A stretch of DNA of 20,320 bases from a virus, in the IMG/VR virus record IMGVR_UViG_3300035698_002139, positions 1 to 20,320 of that record; one strand, 5' to 3'. Of the stretch, positions 1,278 through 9,608 are shown one piece after another. The notes under the pieces are model-generated. The model did not search any database. It saw only the letters and a program-made list of their open reading frames with translations, and was not told the DNA's origin. How positions within the stretch are numbered: the stretch's first letter is position 1; the number at the start of each line of letters is the position of its first letter. A program made the translations under genes and the position numbers.

Positions 1278-1328
1278 GGGCGATTTTACCTTACAGCTTC
1301 CCGAAGTTTTAGTGCAGTCTAAGACTCC

Positions 1329-1397
1329 ACGCCCTCCGCGCCCTCCGCTCCGCGCCCTCCGCGCCCTCCGCTCCGCGCCCTCCGCGCCCTCCGCTCC
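1329..1397. repeat. GC-rich 23-bp tandem repeat, three copies
   Basis: Three consecutive 23-bp units (1329-1351, 1352-1374, 1375-1397) are built from CGCCCTCCG blocks, each ending CTCC. Only the first base of the first unit differs. The C-rich strand lacks stops in several frames, which generates long spurious open frames on both strands. There are no unique spacers, so it is not a CRISPR array. It is probably a slippage-prone simple repeat. Confidence 0.8.
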
Positions 1398-1475
1398 ACG
1401 CCCCCAATCAAGAGGCCACGCCCTCCGTAAAACCTCACAAATGGGGACTCCTCCGTGCGGCGGGCGGAGCCCCCA

Positions 1476-1528
1476 GCCTCCAGCCCCGAGCCCCAAGCCC
1501 CGAGTACGGAGCCCCGAGTACGGAGCCC
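1476..1528. repeat. GC-rich 14-bp repeat tract, left copy
   Basis: CGAGTACGGAGCCC is repeated exactly at 1501-1514 and 1515-1528. It is preceded by degenerate CCCCGAG/CCCCAAG words from about 1480. The words are the reverse complement of the CTCGGGGCTTGG repeat at 2682-2737, so related repeats sit in opposite orientation on either side of the 2019-2492 gene. The tract is not convincingly coding. Confidence 0.6.
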
Positions 1529-1561
1529 CCAGATCCACAGACTGAGCACCGAGGGCAGAAA

Positions 1562-1651
1562 ATGGAGTGTATCGAATTTACCAACGAAGTCTTTACACTC
1601 ACGCTCTGTGCCCTCAGGACTCTGCCGAGGCCACCGAGTCCTGAGTCCTGA
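1562..1651 (+). CDS. Possible mini-protein (29 aa), first of a tandem related pair
   Basis: The short frame begins MECIEFTNEV and runs to TGA after a Pro/Ser-rich tail. A GAGGG sequence lies a few bases before the ATG. The next mini-ORF (1674-1772) begins MEFIEFPNEV, and the similarity continues to residue 19 (ALR). Many amino-acid differences between the two are conservative (L/V, F/L, T/S), and several nucleotide changes are silent. This mildly favours translation, but third positions are not overwhelmingly variable and the minus strand also has an open frame. It could equally be a duplicated non-coding repeat. Confidence 0.25.
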   Translation: MECIEFTNEVFTLTLCALRTLPRPPSPES

Positions 1652-1673
1652 GTCCCCAGAGTCATAGAGGAAA

Positions 1674-1772
1674 ATGGAGTTCATCGAATTTCCCAACGAG
1701 GTACTCAGCGTCCCGGTCTCCGCCCTGCGGGCTCGGGGCTCGTCGGGGCTCGTCGGGGCTCGTCACGCTTAG
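1674..1772 (+). CDS. Possible mini-protein (32 aa), second of a tandem related pair
   Basis: The frame begins MEFIEFPNEVLSVPVSALR and ends in a Gly/Arg/Ser tail encoded by the 10-bp repeat at 1733-1762. AGAGG lies four bases before the ATG. It repeats the first 19 codons of the 1562-1651 frame in diverged form. The low-complexity tails suggest GC-rich repeats have grown into the 3' ends of both frames. No function is recognised. See 1562-1651 for the coding case and its weakness. Confidence 0.25.
   Translation: MEFIEFPNEVLSVPVSALRARGSSGLVGARHA
1733..1762. repeat. 10-bp tandem repeat, three copies
   Basis: TCGGGGCTCG is repeated three times without error (1733-1742, 1743-1752, 1753-1762). 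It belongs to the same CGGGGCT word family as the other GC-rich repeats of this region. It lies in the 3' half of the possible mini-ORF 1674-1772. Confidence 0.8.
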
Positions 1773-1897
1773 CACAAATGTGCGCAAAAGGCAAGCAAAA
1801 ATAAAAAATAAATAACTTGCTAAACCGGGGTGCGGTGTGCTAGGCAAACGCGGGCTAAGTGCCAAACGCCTAGCACGTAGGTGGGTCAACATGCAAC

Positions 1898-1928
1898 ATA
1901 AATAAATGGTAATAATACCATTATTTAT
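1898..1928. promoter_or_regulatory. AT-rich imperfect palindrome
   Basis: AATGGTA-ATAA-TACCATT (1905-1922) is a perfect 7-bp inverted repeat. With one bulged A at 1904 the pairing extends six further base pairs to 1898 and 1928. It lies just upstream of a promoter-like element (1941-1969) in an AT-rich island between GC-rich repeats, so it may be an operator or an unwinding element. There is no T-run on the plus-strand side typical of a terminator for an upstream gene. Confidence 0.5.
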
Positions 1929-1940
1929 TTTGCTAAATAC

Positions 1941-1969
1941 TTGCGCTACGTAGTGCTATACCCTACTAT
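1941..1969 (+). promoter_or_regulatory. Promoter-like element TTGCGC-N17-TACTAT
   Basis: TTGCGC (1941-1946) and TACTAT (1964-1969) are separated by exactly 17 bases, a sigma-70-like arrangement, about 50 bases before the ATG at 2019. Elements of the same form, TTGCNN-N17-TACTAT, precede the terminase operon (2756-2784) and the capsid gene (8453-8481), which supports a shared promoter class. Confidence 0.5.
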
Positions 1970-2018
1970 ATATACATGCCAAGCAATTATGCGGGGCATA
2001 AACCAAAGGTAACTTACC

Positions 2019-2492
2019 ATGGCACAAGTAAAGGCAAGCACCAAGCAAGCAACCCCCAACACTGCCAAGCGTGGCCAAGCCACCAAGCAAGCGGCACCCG
2101 TAGCCAGCACGCGCACCTACCCAACACTGCCCAATGGCTTTGTGTGCCATGGCCAGCTTAACCAACAAGGGCAGCCCAGCAACGTAGCGGCAAGCACGGC
2201 CATGTTTGCCACCCCGCGCACGTTGGGTGTTACGCCAAGCGTGGGCATACCAAGCGGCGCACTGCCCGTAGTACTGTGCCCCGCACAGCCCAGCATGGGT
2301 GCCAAGTACACTAGCGCTTATGCCGTAATACAGGCAGCCTTTACGGCGGCCCAAGCACAGCACGGCAAGGCTGTTACCGCGGCCCAAGTACAGGCGCACT
2401 GTGCCCCATGGCCGGCAGCACGGCCCAAGGCTAACAGCGCATGGCGGCATGTAGTGCGCACGTTGGGTGTTGCTTGGCAGCCCACAGCCTAG
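2019..2492 (+). CDS. Hypothetical Ala/Gln-rich protein (157 aa)
   Basis: Function not recognised. The start ATG has AAGG eight bases upstream and a promoter-like element ending at 1969. The N-terminal 35 residues are basic and low-complexity (Lys, Gln, Thr, Ala), so probably disordered. The C-terminal 60 residues look folded and helical (YTSAYAVIQAAFTAAQAQHGKAVTAAQVQAHC, ending NSAWRHVVRTLGVAW). The peptide RTLGV occurs twice, encoded by a 16-bp direct repeat (CGCACGTTGGGTGTTG-like, near 2217 and 2457). The DNA is rich in CCAAGC and GCAAGC words unlike the downstream virion genes, which suggests separate origin or strong mutational bias. A slightly longer open frame exists on the opposite strand (1956-2495), but it is Cys/Leu/Gly-rich and less protein-like. 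The gene is followed at once by tandem hairpins. It could be a DNA-binding accessory protein, but no motif proves that. Confidence 0.55.
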   Translation: MAQVKASTKQATPNTAKRGQATKQAAPVASTRTYPTLPNGFVCHGQLNQQGQPSNVAASTAMFATPRTLGVTPSVGIPSGALPVVLCPAQPSMGAKYTSAYAVIQAAFTAAQAQHGKAVTAAQVQAHCAPWPAARPKANSAWRHVVRTLGVAWQPTA

Positions 2493-2588
2493 CAACTTGG
2501 CACGGTGTTTGCCCTAGCAAGCACCGTGCCAACTAGCACCGTATAGCAACTTGGCACGGGTTTTGCCCTAGCAAGCCCCGTGCCAAGT
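2490..2588. repeat. Two tandem long hairpins (43-bp direct repeat of an inverted repeat)
   Basis: Hairpin 1 pairs TTGGCACGGTG (2497-2507) with CACCGTGCCAA (2522-2532). Hairpin 2 pairs ACTTGGCACGGG (2549-2560) with CCCGTGCCAAGT (2577-2588). Each loop contains the same inner TTGC-CCTA-GCAA hairpin. The two 43-bp copies (2490-2532 and 2545-2586) differ at three positions. One pair of changes is compensatory: T2506-A2523 becomes G2560-C2577. That argues for selection on the folded form, as RNA or as cruciform DNA. Hairpin 1 begins directly after the stop of the 2019 gene, but neither stem is followed directly by a T-run, so a simple terminator is not the obvious reading. Packaging site, protein-bound dyad or processed RNA are alternatives. 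Confidence 0.75.
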
Positions 2589-2610
2589 ACCCCGCCCGAC
2601 GATTTAAAAT

Positions 2611-2790: not shown

Positions 2791-3126
2791 ATGAAAGAAG
2801 ATGCGCAAGTAGTAGAAGCTGAGATCATAGACATCAGCACTTGGCAACAGCGGCTCAACGACGTAGCTGCCGAACAGACTGACTCACAAATACAGCTCCC
2901 CGCTAAAATTAAGAACCGTAGGGTCAACCGTGAGGAAGTAGCCAACGCTTTTCTCACCTCCTTTGAGATGGTTGGGGGCGTCCCCCGATTGGCCATGTGG
3001 GCGGACGAGAACTACAGCGACTTCATGCGCATCTTTGGACGGCTTCTCCCCAAAGAGTCAGTCCACCTACACGACGGCGAGGTCACTATACACCACGCCG
3101 TGGCCCCCAGTAAGTTAGACGAGTGA
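2791..3126 (+). CDS. Probable terminase small subunit / DNA-packaging protein (111 aa)
   Basis: The product opens the packaging module, two genes upstream of the large terminase. Its central segment (about residues 50-85, VANAFLTSFEMVGGVPRLAMWADENYSDFMRIFGRLLP) is of a type found in proteins encoded next to podovirus large terminases, and is probably helical. Small terminases recognise the packaging site and load the large subunit. The N-terminal 30 residues are acidic and probably flexible. No classical helix-turn-helix can be pointed to, so the assignment rests mostly on position and this segment. There is no Shine-Dalgarno sequence before the ATG, and the -10-like TACTAT ends only six bases upstream, so the mRNA may be leaderless. 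Confidence 0.6.
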   Translation: MKEDAQVVEAEIIDISTWQQRLNDVAAEQTDSQIQLPAKIKNRRVNREEVANAFLTSFEMVGGVPRLAMWADENYSDFMRIFGRLLPKESVHLHDGEVTIHHAVAPSKLDE

Positions 3127-3426: not shown

Positions 3427-3602
3427 TGACTGAACACACCACCCCCGCGCACGTTAAGTCCCCCGCCATCGCCGCAGGTGACTCTTTTTACCGCTGTCTC
3501 GTAACGGGAGCGGAATGGCAAGACGACTGGGACGAGAACGAAGACCCCGTGCAAGAGCCGTGGCTAGATGAGAATGGCGACGAGGTGCCGCGCCCCGAAT
3601 GA
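3426..3602 (+). CDS. Hypothetical acidic mini-protein (58 aa)
   Basis: Function not recognised. The gene is supported by tight coupling on both sides: its ATG overlaps the upstream TAA (TAATG) and its TGA overlaps the terminase ATG (ATGA). With it included there is no gap between 3136 and 4930. The product is very acidic, with a C-terminal half of repeated Asp/Glu/Trp/Pro (WQDDWDENEDPVQEPWLDEN). The N-terminus is Thr/Pro/Ala-rich, with one Cys in SFYRCLVTGAEW. The upstream neighbour is strongly basic, so the two could associate electrostatically, which is inference. It is too short for many automated gene callers. Confidence 0.7.
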   Translation: MTEHTTPAHVKSPAIAAGDSFYRCLVTGAEWQDDWDENEDPVQEPWLDENGDEVPRPE

Positions 3603-4930
3603 CTGAGTTAACGTTCACTTACGAGCCTAGGGAATTTTTCCAGCCCTTTCACGCTCGTGAGGAGCGTTTCGCCTGCCTAGTCTGCCACCGCCGCGCGGGT
3701 AAGACCGTGGGGGTGATAAACGACATGATCGCCAAGGCGCTCTACACTAAAAAGAAAAACGCGAGGTATGCTTATGTCGCTCCGTTTTTTCGGCAAGCGA
3801 AGGATGTCGCTTGGCAATATCTCAAAGACTTCGCAGGAAGCGGAGTCGTTAAGATTAGAGAGTCCCAGTTACGTGTGGAGCTCATTAATGGATCGTGGAT
3901 TACACTCTATGGAGCTGACAACCCTGATGCTCTACGCGGACTATACCTGGATGGTGTTATACTCGACGAAGCGGGAGATATGCGTCCAGGGCTGTGGGCC
4001 GATGTCATACTCCCTGCACTAACTGACCGACGAGGCTGGGCCGTGTTCATCGGCACGCCGAAAGGCAAGAACTACTTCTACGACATTTACCAGCGCGCTC
4101 AGAGAGAGGCCAACTGGTTCAGTCTAATACTAAGGGCCAGTGAGTCCGGACTACTTAACAAAGACGACCTAGCTGAAGTGCGTGGCATTCAGGAAGAGGC
4201 CAGCTACCAGCAAGAGTTTGAGTGCAGCTTTGACGCCTCCGTTAAGGGTTCTTATTACAACGACATCTTTAACAACAATGACCTACTCGGTACGGTGCCC
4301 TACACTCCCACCTACCCTGTGTCAGTGGCAATGGACCTTGGTAGGACGGACAGCACTGCGATGTGGTTCTGGCAGAGTATTCCGGGCGCAGGGCCACGCG
4401 TCATAGACTACCACGAAGCCGACAGCAAAGACCTAGATTACTACTTCACGTACTTGGATGCGAAGCCTTACGGGTACGACACGATGTGGCTGCCACACGA
4501 CGCCGTGGCTAAGACGCTGGCAACGAAGAAGTCTACCATCCAGCAGTTCATGGAGTGGGTAGACCAACGCTGGCGGGTAGAGAAGATACCACAGCTGAGT
4601 AAGCAGCACGGAATAGACGCAGCACGGAAAGTCCTCCCGCAGTGTAAGTTTGACGAAGTTATGTGCAAACAGGGCATCAACGCTCTGCAACACCACAAGC
4701 GGAAGTACAACTCAGTACTGAAGGCTTACAGTGACCAAGCGCAACACGACTGGTCAAGCCACGGAGCTGACGGGTTTAGGTACTTAGCCCTCGTGGTACA
4801 GGATGACATGGAATTAGCAGAGGTTGACACACAAACGCCTCTTGAGCGGTATCAAGAGCCGTATACACTGAATGACCTCTGGAAGGAGAAAGATGATGGC
4901 GATTGGCGAAGCAGAATTATCAGGATCTGA
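3599..4930 (+). CDS. terL: Terminase large subunit (443 aa)
   Basis: This is the DNA-packaging motor: an ATPase that pumps DNA into the procapsid through the portal, and a nuclease that cuts concatemers. Walker A is HRRAGKT at residues 30-36. Walker B is VILDEA at 120-125, with catalytic Glu124. The coupling motif IGTPKG is at 151-156. The RNase H-like nuclease domain follows, with AMDLGRTDSTAM (Asp246), LPHDA (Asp301) and SHGADGFRY (Asp391) as the likely metal-binding acidic residues. The length is near the family norm, with a compact N-terminus. The ATG overlaps the preceding gene's stop as ATGA. The 3' end overlaps the portal start by about 35 bases. No frameshift or missing motif is seen. 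Terminase phylogeny usually tracks packaging strategy, but that needs alignment. Confidence 0.95.
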   Translation: MTELTFTYEPREFFQPFHAREERFACLVCHRRAGKTVGVINDMIAKALYTKKKNARYAYVAPFFRQAKDVAWQYLKDFAGSGVVKIRESQLRVELINGSWITLYGADNPDALRGLYLDGVILDEAGDMRPGLWADVILPALTDRRGWAVFIGTPKGKNYFYDIYQRAQREANWFSLILRASESGLLNKDDLAEVRGIQEEASYQQEFECSFDASVKGSYYNDIFNNNDLLGTVPYTPTYPVSVAMDLGRTDSTAMWFWQSIPGAGPRVIDYHEADSKDLDYYFTYLDAKPYGYDTMWLPHDAVAKTLATKKSTIQQFMEWVDQRWRVEKIPQLSKQHGIDAARKVLPQCKFDEVMCKQGINALQHHKRKYNSVLKAYSDQAQHDWSSHGADGFRYLALVVQDDMELAEVDTQTPLERYQEPYTLNDLWKEKDDGDWRSRIIRI

Positions 4931-7115
4931 TGACCAAGACCAGCCCACGGGCAAGAGCCCGCGTGAGTTACAGAAGTACTGGACTAAAGAAAAGACAGCG
5001 TCGGACAAGCGCCTTCGGAAGTTTCGCAAGCAGGGTAACAAGGTCAACAACCGCTTTCTTGACACCCGTGAAAACGAGGACATACAAGATAAGTCCATAG
5101 TATCGCGTGTCAACCTGTTTCACACCAACATAACGACGCTACAGTCTATGCTGTACGGGCGGGTTCCGAAGATTGAGGTTAAGCGTGACCATGCTGACCC
5201 TGATGACGACGTGGCCCGCGTGGCAGCGATGCTGCTCAAGCGCATCTTGGACAACGACGTGCGGACTATGGACACTGACGTTGCTACGACGTTAAAAGCC
5301 GCGCTTCAAGATAGACTCCTCCCCGGACTGGGCCTTGCGCGCATTGTCTACGCGGCTGAGTTTGAAGAGATGGAGACCATCGTAATGAACCCTGAGACAG
5401 GGGTTCAAGAGGTTCAGATACAGGAGCAGCTTGCGTACGAGAACGCGAGGCCGGAGTACGTACACTGGCAAGACGTAGCGTGGGGATGGTGCCGTACGTG
5501 GTCTGAGATGCCTTGGCTTGGGTTTCGCGCGTGGATGGACAAAGATGAGTCTGAGGCGCGGTTTGGTGCTGACGTAGCTGAGAAACTGGAGTACAAGAAC
5601 CAACTACCGTCAGGCGACAAGAGTGACACCGACCACATTGACGCAGACCAGAAGAACAACACTCAAAAAGCCGAAATTTGGGAGTTTTGGGACAAGCAGA
5701 CGAAGAAGGTGTACTGGTGGTCCAGCGGCATGGACACTATACTGGACGAAAAGGAGGACCCGCTGGAGCTAGAGGGCTTCTGGCCGTGCCCGCGCCCCAT
5801 GACTGCCAACATTACGACCAGTTTGTTCATGCCAAAGGCGGATTTTGTCATTGCGCAGGACCTTTACAACCTAGTTGACATACTGGCGACGAGAATTAGC
5901 ATCATAACCGAGGCTGTTAAGGTCGTAGGAGTGTATGACAAGAGCGCTGGAGACAGTGTGGGGCGTATGTTGTCGGAGGGCGTGGAAAATCAACTTATTC
6001 CCGTGGATAACTGGGCTATGTTCGCTGAAAAAGGCGGATTACAGGGAGTTATTGACTGGTTCCCCGTACAAGAGATCGTAGGCGTGCTACAGACGCTGCG
6101 GCAGGTGCTAGCGGACACCGTAGACCAGCTTTATCAGGTCACAGGTATGTCAGACATCTTACGAGGGGCCAACACCGAGGAATACACGAGTGATGGCACC
6201 CAACAGCTAAAGGCGAAGTTTGGTAGCATTCGCGTACAAGCACTTCAGGAAGAGTTTGCGCGGTTTGCCAGTGATCTTGACGCCCTCAAGGCAGAAGTGA
6301 TAGGCAAGCATTACGAACCTAAAACAATCGTGTACCAATCATCAGCTGAGTACATTCCAGAGGCTGACAGGGACAAAATTGGCCCCGCGCTGGAGCTCAT
6401 CAAGTCCCCCGACATCCAGTGGCGCGTTGAGATTAAGCCAGAGTCTATCGCTATGGTGGACTACGCGCAGCTTAAGGCTGAGCGTACTGAGTTCCTAAAC
6501 GCGATGGCCACATACATTCAATCCGCGCAGGCGGCCGTGAGTGTTATGCCAGACAGCCTCCCTGTACTTCTAGAACTGCTGAAGTGGGCGATGGCTGGGT
6601 TCAAAGGCAGCGAGTATCTTGAGGGCACGATGGACCGAGCTATTGAAGCCGCCATGCAGCCTAAGGAAGACAAGCCAGACCCAGAAGCCGAGCGGGCGCA
6701 GATGGAGATGCAGCGGGCGCAGATGGAGCATCAGCAAGAGATGCAGAAGATACAGGCCAAGGCTCAGGCCGACATGGCGGTACAGGCAGAGAAAGCGCGG
6801 GCAGCCATGGCGCAGGAGATGGCCGACCATCAGAACGCCATGGAGCTGGAGCGTACCAACCACGCCAACGAGCTCCAGCAAATGCAGATGGAGCTACAGA
6901 ACACTATGCGCGAGCTTCAGGCTAAAGTTGAAGCCGTTATACGTGAGGAGCAGGCTCAATCAGCCTACGCCATAGAAGAAGAGCAGTTACAGCATCGTAA
7001 TAAGATGATGCAAATGGGGCTAGACCATGCAGCGGTCATGGAGGAAAAAGAAGAGGAACATAAAAATGCCGAGGTGGAGGCAAGATCCAGAAACTCACAA
7101 GCTGATACCGATTGA
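4896..7115 (+). CDS. Portal protein (739 aa)
   Basis: The portal forms the dodecameric ring at one capsid vertex, docks the terminase and passes DNA. It follows the large terminase directly and has the size of P22-like or N4-like podovirus portals. AAGGAG lies seven bases before the ATG at 4896, so that start was chosen over the in-frame ATG at 4872. The N-terminal region contains VSRVNLFHTNITTLQSMLYGRVPKIEV, followed by the long mixed alpha/beta body and a mid-C-terminal helical region around TGMSDILRGANTEEYTSDGTQQLKAKFGS. From about residue 588 the protein becomes a Gln/Met/Glu/Ala-rich coiled coil of roughly 150 residues, reminiscent of the barrel helices of P22 gp1. The 3' end overlaps the 7066 gene by 50 bases. 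Confidence 0.9.
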   Translation: MAIGEAELSGSDDQDQPTGKSPRELQKYWTKEKTASDKRLRKFRKQGNKVNNRFLDTRENEDIQDKSIVSRVNLFHTNITTLQSMLYGRVPKIEVKRDHADPDDDVARVAAMLLKRILDNDVRTMDTDVATTLKAALQDRLLPGLGLARIVYAAEFEEMETIVMNPETGVQEVQIQEQLAYENARPEYVHWQDVAWGWCRTWSEMPWLGFRAWMDKDESEARFGADVAEKLEYKNQLPSGDKSDTDHIDADQKNNTQKAEIWEFWDKQTKKVYWWSSGMDTILDEKEDPLELEGFWPCPRPMTANITTSLFMPKADFVIAQDLYNLVDILATRISIITEAVKVVGVYDKSAGDSVGRMLSEGVENQLIPVDNWAMFAEKGGLQGVIDWFPVQEIVGVLQTLRQVLADTVDQLYQVTGMSDILRGANTEEYTSDGTQQLKAKFGSIRVQALQEEFARFASDLDALKAEVIGKHYEPKTIVYQSSAEYIPEADRDKIGPALELIKSPDIQWRVEIKPESIAMVDYAQLKAERTEFLNAMATYIQSAQAAVSVMPDSLPVLLELLKWAMAGFKGSEYLEGTMDRAIEAAMQPKEDKPDPEAERAQMEMQRAQMEHQQEMQKIQAKAQADMAVQAEKARAAMAQEMADHQNAMELERTNHANELQQMQMELQNTMRELQAKVEAVIREEQAQSAYAIEEEQLQHRNKMMQMGLDHAAVMEEKEEEHKNAEVEARSRNSQADTD

Positions 7116-8648: not shown

Positions 8649-9608
8649 ATGGCATTCCCCAACATCAGTGACATCATCGCAACTACGATTGACAACCGGT
8701 CAAAAGAGATTGCGGACAACGTAACGAAGAACAACGCATTCCTAATGAAAATGGACATGCGAGGCCGCATTAAAACCTTTAGCGGCGGTGTAAAGATCCT
8801 TCAAGAGCTCAGCTTTGCTGAAAACAGCAACGCAGGCTTCTACAGCGGGTACGACATCCTGCCTGTGGGCGTCAGCGATGTAATCAGCGCCGCAGAGTTT
8901 AACATCAAGCAAGCGGCGGTGCCCTGCATCATGTCTGGTCTGGAAATGCTCCAGAACGCTGGGCGTGAGCGTATGATTGACCTCATGGAGAGTCGTATTG
9001 AAGTGGCGGAAGCTACTTTGACGAACCTCATTTGTGGCGCGTTATACAGCGACGGCACTGGCTCCGGTGGTAACGAGATTGACGGCCTTAATGCTGCGGT
9101 TCCTTTGGACCCAACGAGCGGCACCTACGGCGGCATTGACCGTGCTACGTGGACTTTCTGGCGCAATCAGTTTGTAAACTCTGCAAACACCAGCACCCTC
9201 CAGGTAGATTGGAACGGTCTATGGGCCGCGTGTACTCGTGGCGCTGACCGCCCTGACCTTATCCTATGCGATAACACCGTATGGGAAGCCTACATGGCCA
9301 GCTTGCAGGCTCAACAGCGCTTTACCTCTCCAGAGGTCGGCAACTTGGGCTTCCCAACCATTAAGTTCATGGACGCTGATGTGTGCTTGGACGGTGGTAT
9401 CGGAGGCTTCTGCCCTGCCGGAACAGCATTCTTCCTTAACACGAAGTATATGCACTACCGCCCACACTCGGCTCGTAATATGGTGCCGTTGTCGCCTAAT
9501 CGGCGTTACGCTACCAACCAAGACGCTGAAGTACAGATCTTGGCTTGGGCTGGCAACCTGACTTGTTCAGGTGCTCAGTTCCAGGGTCGGTACGACGCTA
9601 ACGCCTAA
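8649..9608 (+). CDS. Major capsid protein (319 aa)
   Basis: This is probably the HK97-fold shell subunit. It follows the scaffold gene, has a very strong ribosome-binding site (AGGAG, seven bases before the ATG) and its own terminator, as expected for the most expressed virion gene. The N-terminus is helical (FPNISDIIATTIDNRSKEIADNVTKNNAFLMKM). Next comes a Gly-rich loop region with GGVKILQELSFAENSNAGFYSGYDILP (about residues 38-65), like the E-loop and following strand of coat proteins. SGLEMLQNAGRERMIDLMESRIEVAEATLTNLICGALYSDG resembles the spine helix and P-domain start. No propeptide or protease gene is seen, which fits scaffold-dependent, protease-free assembly. Confidence 0.88.
   Translation: MAFPNISDIIATTIDNRSKEIADNVTKNNAFLMKMDMRGRIKTFSGGVKILQELSFAENSNAGFYSGYDILPVGVSDVISAAEFNIKQAAVPCIMSGLEMLQNAGRERMIDLMESRIEVAEATLTNLICGALYSDGTGSGGNEIDGLNAAVPLDPTSGTYGGIDRATWTFWRNQFVNSANTSTLQVDWNGLWAACTRGADRPDLILCDNTVWEAYMASLQAQQRFTSPEVGNLGFPTIKFMDADVCLDGGIGGFCPAGTAFFLNTKYMHYRPHSARNMVPLSPNRRYATNQDAEVQILAWAGNLTCSGAQFQGRYDANA

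Follow-up and report, generated by a model that had tools for sequence, protein, structure and literature searches.

The DNA analysed here (the window, 20,320 bp) is the whole of one virus record, a genome fragment that carries head, tail and packaging genes and from which early genes are absent. Its relevant features are:

1887..2597, both strands: GA/TC-free island, with 0 GA or TC in 712 bp
2019..2492, + strand: P1, an ORF for a 157-aa basic protein, inside the GA/TC-free island
2495..2534, both strands: dyad 1, an 18-bp stem with the loop CCTA, predicted face-to-face sigma54 element pair
2549..2588, both strands: dyad 2, an 18-bp stem with a 4-nt CCTA loop, second predicted face-to-face sigma54 pair
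2791..3126, + strand: ORF in the terS position, no PHROG family match at usable significance
3599..4930, + strand: terminase large subunit (terL), phrog_2, E 3.5e-38
4893-7115: portal
8649-9608: major capsid

The dyads follow the P1 stop codon and precede the terS-position ORF. They confirm the two tandem long inverted repeats described in the initial annotation of this DNA. Spaced 54 bp apart from start to start, they are the only hairpins of at least 12 Watson-Crick pairs in the window, and they fold far better than shuffled sequence (z = -7.8 as RNA and -8.8 as DNA, with 0 of 200 shuffles as good). A T-run directly 3' of the stem is absent from both dyads and no intrinsic terminator was called at 2495-2588, in agreement with the earlier remark that terminator T-runs are lacking. 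The dyads had also been placed ~200 bp upstream of the small terminase gene; the distance to the ORF at 2791-3126 is as claimed, but no PHROG family identifies that ORF as the gene in question. Searches of the window returned no Rfam family at the gathering threshold and no tRNA. An A7T7 tract lies 3' of the dyads at 2612-2625, and likewise at the same place in L003, a relative. At 1060-1230, iteron-like repeats (CCTATTGATAGCC, GTACCCTATT) lie beside an AT-rich stretch and may mark a replication origin.

Both dyads match the sigma54 promoter consensus

Each dyad arm, read on either strand, is of the form TTGGCACG-N4-TTGC, which is the -24/-12 form of sigma54 promoters. The published consensus for these promoters is TGGCACG-4N-TTGC(T/A) (PMC9765219), and that for D. 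vulgaris is tGGcacg/tTGCt (PMC4641369). The four elements are:

2498..2512, + strand: TGGCACG-GTGT-TTGC, directed towards terS/terL, putative transcription start ~2524, 11/11 consensus match
2517..2531, - strand: TGGCACG-GTGC-TTGC(T), directed leftwards, antisense into P1, putative transcription start ~2506, 11/11 consensus match
2552..2566, + strand: TGGCACG-GGTT-TTGC, 11/11 consensus match
2571..2585, - strand: TGGCACG-GGGC-TTGC(T), 11/11 consensus match

The invariant GG and GC of sigma54 elements are present in four of four sites. Because all four arms match the consensus, each dyad can be read as two sigma54 promoters, interleaved and facing each other, and the palindrome as the product of one asymmetric sigma54 signal written on both strands. 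The earlier suggestion of a regulator-bound dyad was right in kind, the arms being apparent recognition elements for sigma54-RNA polymerase. We predict, with high confidence, that the dyads are double-stranded DNA sites for E-sigma54 (the RpoN holoenzyme).

The resemblance to bacterial -24/-12 promoters covers the 11/11 elements, the N4 spacing, the intergenic location and the bases that flank the core, with Y 5' of TGGCACG in 93 of 122 arms and W 3' of TTGC in 94 of 122. Bacterial sigma54 elements are also enriched in the candidate host genome, a deltaproteobacterial MAG linked weakly to this virus by a contig bearing a 58%-identical portal; it holds 28 single perfect sites compared to 1 for the reversed control. 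In contrast to bacterial promoters, the phage dyads are interleaved face to face on both strands, are tandem or arrayed and lie upstream of terminase. A search of 193 genomes from the candidate host phylum found 0 face-to-face sigma54 pairs, indicating that this arrangement is not ordinary promoter architecture. We found no sigma54 gene in the phage records and no sigma54 activator (PF00158) in 64 of them. Since neither gene was seen in the phage records, the likely ligand of the dyads, as far as sequence can indicate, is the host RpoN-RNAP.

The element recurs upstream of terL in other viruses

Relatives were gathered through terL and portal, and not through P1. Their contigs (1.086 Mb) contain 21 perfect sites, compared to 0.56 expected. 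Wherever such sites were mapped (the window, L060, L062, L151, L152, L091, L077 and L074), they lie upstream of terL. The elements of L060, L062 and L152 stand upstream of P1 rather than 3' of it, and L062, L077 and L091 carry single unpaired sites. No sigma54 site was found at the locus in L003 and L053, two island-bearing relatives, and the element is therefore not essential across the whole clade.

When IMG/VR was scanned blind for the face-to-face N4 pattern, 66 contigs were returned, a count that overstates independence because many of the contigs are mutually related, while the same pattern with N5 spacers returned 0 contigs. This restriction to N4 marks a sigma54 signature and not a generic palindrome. 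An iterated protein search recognised a terL ORF at 33 of the 66 dyad loci, and the dyad was upstream of terL in all 33, at a distance of no more than 4 kb in 30 and commonly of 0.7-2.3 kb. A PHROG scan of 82 dyad-neighbour proteins likewise found mostly terL, in several families. Taken together, these findings establish the face-to-face TGGCACG-N4-TTGC element as real and recurrent in viruses.

Within 1 kb of the dyads we found 66 further perfect N4 sites, a density of 0.547/kb compared to 0.015/kb farther away, and no extra sites with N3 or N5 spacers; 32 of the 66 loci have just one pair within 1 kb. Among the extra sites, those facing away from terL outnumber those facing it (26 vs 10; two-sided p 0.011, relatedness ignored), which is a poor fit to a plain late promoter. 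Dense arrays of 10-13 perfect sites in ~1 kb, in mixed orientation, were observed in L216 (7700-8800), L213 and L194; that of L216, with 13 perfect sites per kb, is upstream of terL.

Sequence, not pairing, is conserved

The initial annotation counted three differences between the copies and interpreted one pair of them as a compensatory change that reveals selection on structure. Over 43 bp, 4 positions differ. Two of the four changes replace T-A by G-C and keep pairing, and this part of the argument holds, but the neighbouring G-to-T change breaks one pair; a C-to-G change near the outer end gains one. Three of the four differences, the "compensatory" pair included, fall within the consensus-free N4 spacers, and the fourth lies outside the elements. 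Selection on pairing would give matching arm spacers in relatives. Instead, L060 and L152 keep the -24/-12 words of their face-to-face elements while the spacers are unpaired, and across 61 distinct elements of other viruses the two spacers agree at 0.85 of their 4 positions compared to ~1.3 expected from composition. Structure is thus not conserved. The pairing that had been expected to persist in relatives breaks exactly in the N4 spacers, and the claim of selection on structure fails with it, as does that of a structured RNA. On this sequence evidence, the conserved feature is not structure and the dyads are not a structured RNA.

A proposed docking site for host polymerase and its alternatives

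Sigma54 is the strictest of bacterial transcription switches, in which the polymerase waits on the DNA and an ATPase starts it. E-sigma54 binds -24/-12 sites as a stable inactive closed complex, and opening requires an AAA+ enhancer-binding protein. We propose that, at the boundary that precedes the packaging (late) operon, the array would act as a docking site insensitive to orientation, that docked sigma54 polymerase would keep the region silent or block read-through, and that a host activator would fire the docked polymerase to give transcription outwards in both directions. No activator site for the array was identified. Docking pairs for host E-sigma54 that gate the packaging operon provide, in our view, the best explanation as a whole, and probably the right one. 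The narrower claim, that the array gates transcription of the terminase/late operon, is an even call, and a gate, a roadblock and an RpoN sponge are indistinguishable from sequence alone. Genome mapping in E. coli revealed stable E-sigma54 binding without transcription at scattered and often intragenic sites (PMC4591121). Silent holoenzyme binding, documented there for sigma54, is the trait that the viral sites may share with those of E. coli; in contrast to the latter, they are clustered at one locus. If the proposal is correct, phages would couple the expression of their late genes, or the host RpoN regulon, to the sigma54 switch. This would point to a hitherto unnoticed phage use of a host transcription switch, and face-to-face TGGCACG-N4-TTGC would serve as a signature with which to find such phages and predict RpoN-bearing hosts. 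A literature search of partial coverage returned no description of a two-faced phage sigma54 site or of a GA/TC-free island.

The chief alternative to a gating role is that the arrays titrate RpoN. On replicated phage genomes they would tie up the E-sigma54 of the host as silent closed complexes, so that its sigma54 regulon (nitrogen, envelope stress, pili or flagella) is switched off, and the position before terL would merely be a free intergenic slot. The inactive state in which E-sigma54 binds (PMC4591121) is consistent with such a sponge, as are the lack of a phage-encoded activator, the 0 face-to-face pairs in 193 candidate-phylum genomes and the presence of as many as 13 perfect sites within 1 kb (10 in two other viruses) in mixed orientation. 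We nevertheless consider it rather unlikely, for 32 of 66 loci have one pair only within 1 kb, which is few, and the place upstream of terL (33 of 33) is too regular if place were irrelevant.

Packaging-site and structured RNA readings, both raised in the initial annotation, are unlikely. According to the former, the dyads are a pac or cos site to which the small terminase subunit binds, and they resemble sigma54 sites by coincidence. Its positional part is borne out, the element being always upstream of terL (33 of 33) and commonly 0.7-2.3 kb from it, but the sequence is that of the host sigma54 consensus with strict 4-bp spacing. The same host-factor consensus occurs across phages with different terminase families, phage-specific pac or cos sites would not depend on exactly N4 (0 matches with N5), and L062, L077 and L091 have unpaired single sites, all of which render this reading improbable. 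An operator for a phage regulator that recognises the same words by chance is very improbable. P1 would be a candidate regulator, its gene being the neighbour of the dyads and its family, by structure models, a small winged-helix-like domain, but the element is present in phages without a detected P1 relative (no P match in L074, L077 or L091), its agreement with the sigma54 extended consensus and spacing is exact, and a dimer operator would not yield many single oriented sites. A structured RNA or tandem terminator at the P1 3' end is scarcely credible. The dyads fold very stably, a T7 run lies ~30 bp downstream, and hairpins in the post-P1 slot of L003, L053 and L060 resemble terminators; against this, neither stem is followed by a T-run, neither a terminator nor an Rfam match was called, spacers are unpaired in L060 and L152 and match below chance in the 61 elements, and in L060, L062 and L152 the elements are upstream of P1 and not after it.

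The dyads end a GA/TC-free island centred on the P1 start

On its right side the island, which spans promoter, P1 gene and dyads, ends with the dyads. From 1764 to 2597 (835 bp) the sole GA/TC dinucleotide is a TC at 1886. The frequency of GA/TC in the genome is 0.106/bp, no other free run in the window exceeds 88 bp, and the chance of the island is ~4e-32 per window. Its G+C content of 55.6% is normal, and GA/TC alone is affected. A graded purge of GA/TC, centred on the P1 start, is also present in seven other viruses (L003, L053, L060, L151, L062, L019 and L152, the last mostly for GA). It is absent from G015, G016, G017 and the P2 paralogues examined (G018, G024), and no GA/TC desert was found in the known relatives Mx8, BUCT555, Venkman, ctXG6705 or HTVC010P, where the longest runs are 52-76 bp. 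In unrelated phages (L186-L251), GA/TC is low near the dyads (median p 0.17, compared to 0.29-0.65 for other dinucleotides), a modest dip that may reflect mere intergenic DNA.

Two candidate causes of the island were disfavoured. A CmdT-type defence would act by ADP-ribosylation of GA in single-stranded RNA, and the purge of both GA and TC on the same strand points instead to a double-stranded cause. TC-specific deamination fits poorly with an island that is not AT-rich.

P1 lacks D and E residues in all of its 157 aa. It is a genuine protein gene, as indicated by a dN/dS of 0.24 (L060 vs L151). The P family is small and basic, and models of its relatives show a small winged-helix-like domain; fold matches for P1 are weak (best Z 5.6, winged-helix-like; Foldseek gave no E under 1), and the model of the window P1 itself is poor (pLDDT 44). 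Comparison of the window P1 protein with viral contigs found no relative, and that of the P1 family with annotated phages found no match. An exact 16-bp repeat in P1 (GCGCACGTTGGGTGTT, 2216-2231 and 2456-2471) encodes RTLGV twice. Six genomes (G015, G016, G018, G022, G024 and G045) have two P paralogues on opposite strands, one upstream of terminase and the second on the other strand, where in G022 and G024 it belongs to a modification operon.

Several island-bearing relatives encode thymine-hypermodification genes

PF18723, the 5hmdU DNA kinase helical domain, occurs in relatives G005, G015, G016, G022, G024 and G045. Among records of at least 25 kb searched for both, and with relatedness ignored, it is present in 5 of 6 with P compared to 0 of 16 without P. 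In G022 and G024, P2, PF18723 and a thymidylate-synthase homologue share one operon. These apparent hypermodification operons (L154:2146-7979 in G022 and L156:6998-11494 in G024) comprise the P2 paralogue, one or more glycosyltransferase-like genes, PF18723 and the thymidylate-synthase homologue. A search for further HMUDK loci by peptide patterns found none.

Known thymine hypermodification occurs in TG/TC context (PMC6449724, PMC7653180); PMC7653180 also cites the finding that E. coli polymerase is impaired by phosphorylated 5hmdU. For comparison we used the thymine-hypermodified phages M6, ViI and phiW-14, which have a 5hmdU DNA kinase and TG/TC context (PMC6449724). Like these, the island-bearing relatives L060/G022 and L062/G024 carry PF18723 adjoining a thymidylate-synthase homologue; unlike this clade, M6 has no GA/TC or TG/CA desert. 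As a modification signature we considered an excess of GA/TC outside the island; it is suggestive in the PF18723 group, but L065 and L080 show high values too although they lack PF18723, and the measure was set aside.

Since several island-bearing relatives encode thymine-hypermodification genes, the island may be modification-proof; were there a TC-specific enzyme in the clade, the island would be the one place that modification cannot reach. We tentatively suggest, with less than even confidence, that it is a cassette comprising a gene and a host-polymerase docking site free of the phage's hypermodified thymine. An unmodified island would allow host RNA polymerase, sigma54 polymerase included, always to read it. 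Such a cassette would constitute a first genomic footprint of a heavily modified phage keeping chosen DNA readable, and the modification context would be readable from sequence alone.

Short tandem repeats, C-rich and then G-rich and high in GA/TC, flank the island in the window (1315-1768 and 2665-2750), and similar GA-rich repeats flank the islands of L003 and L053.
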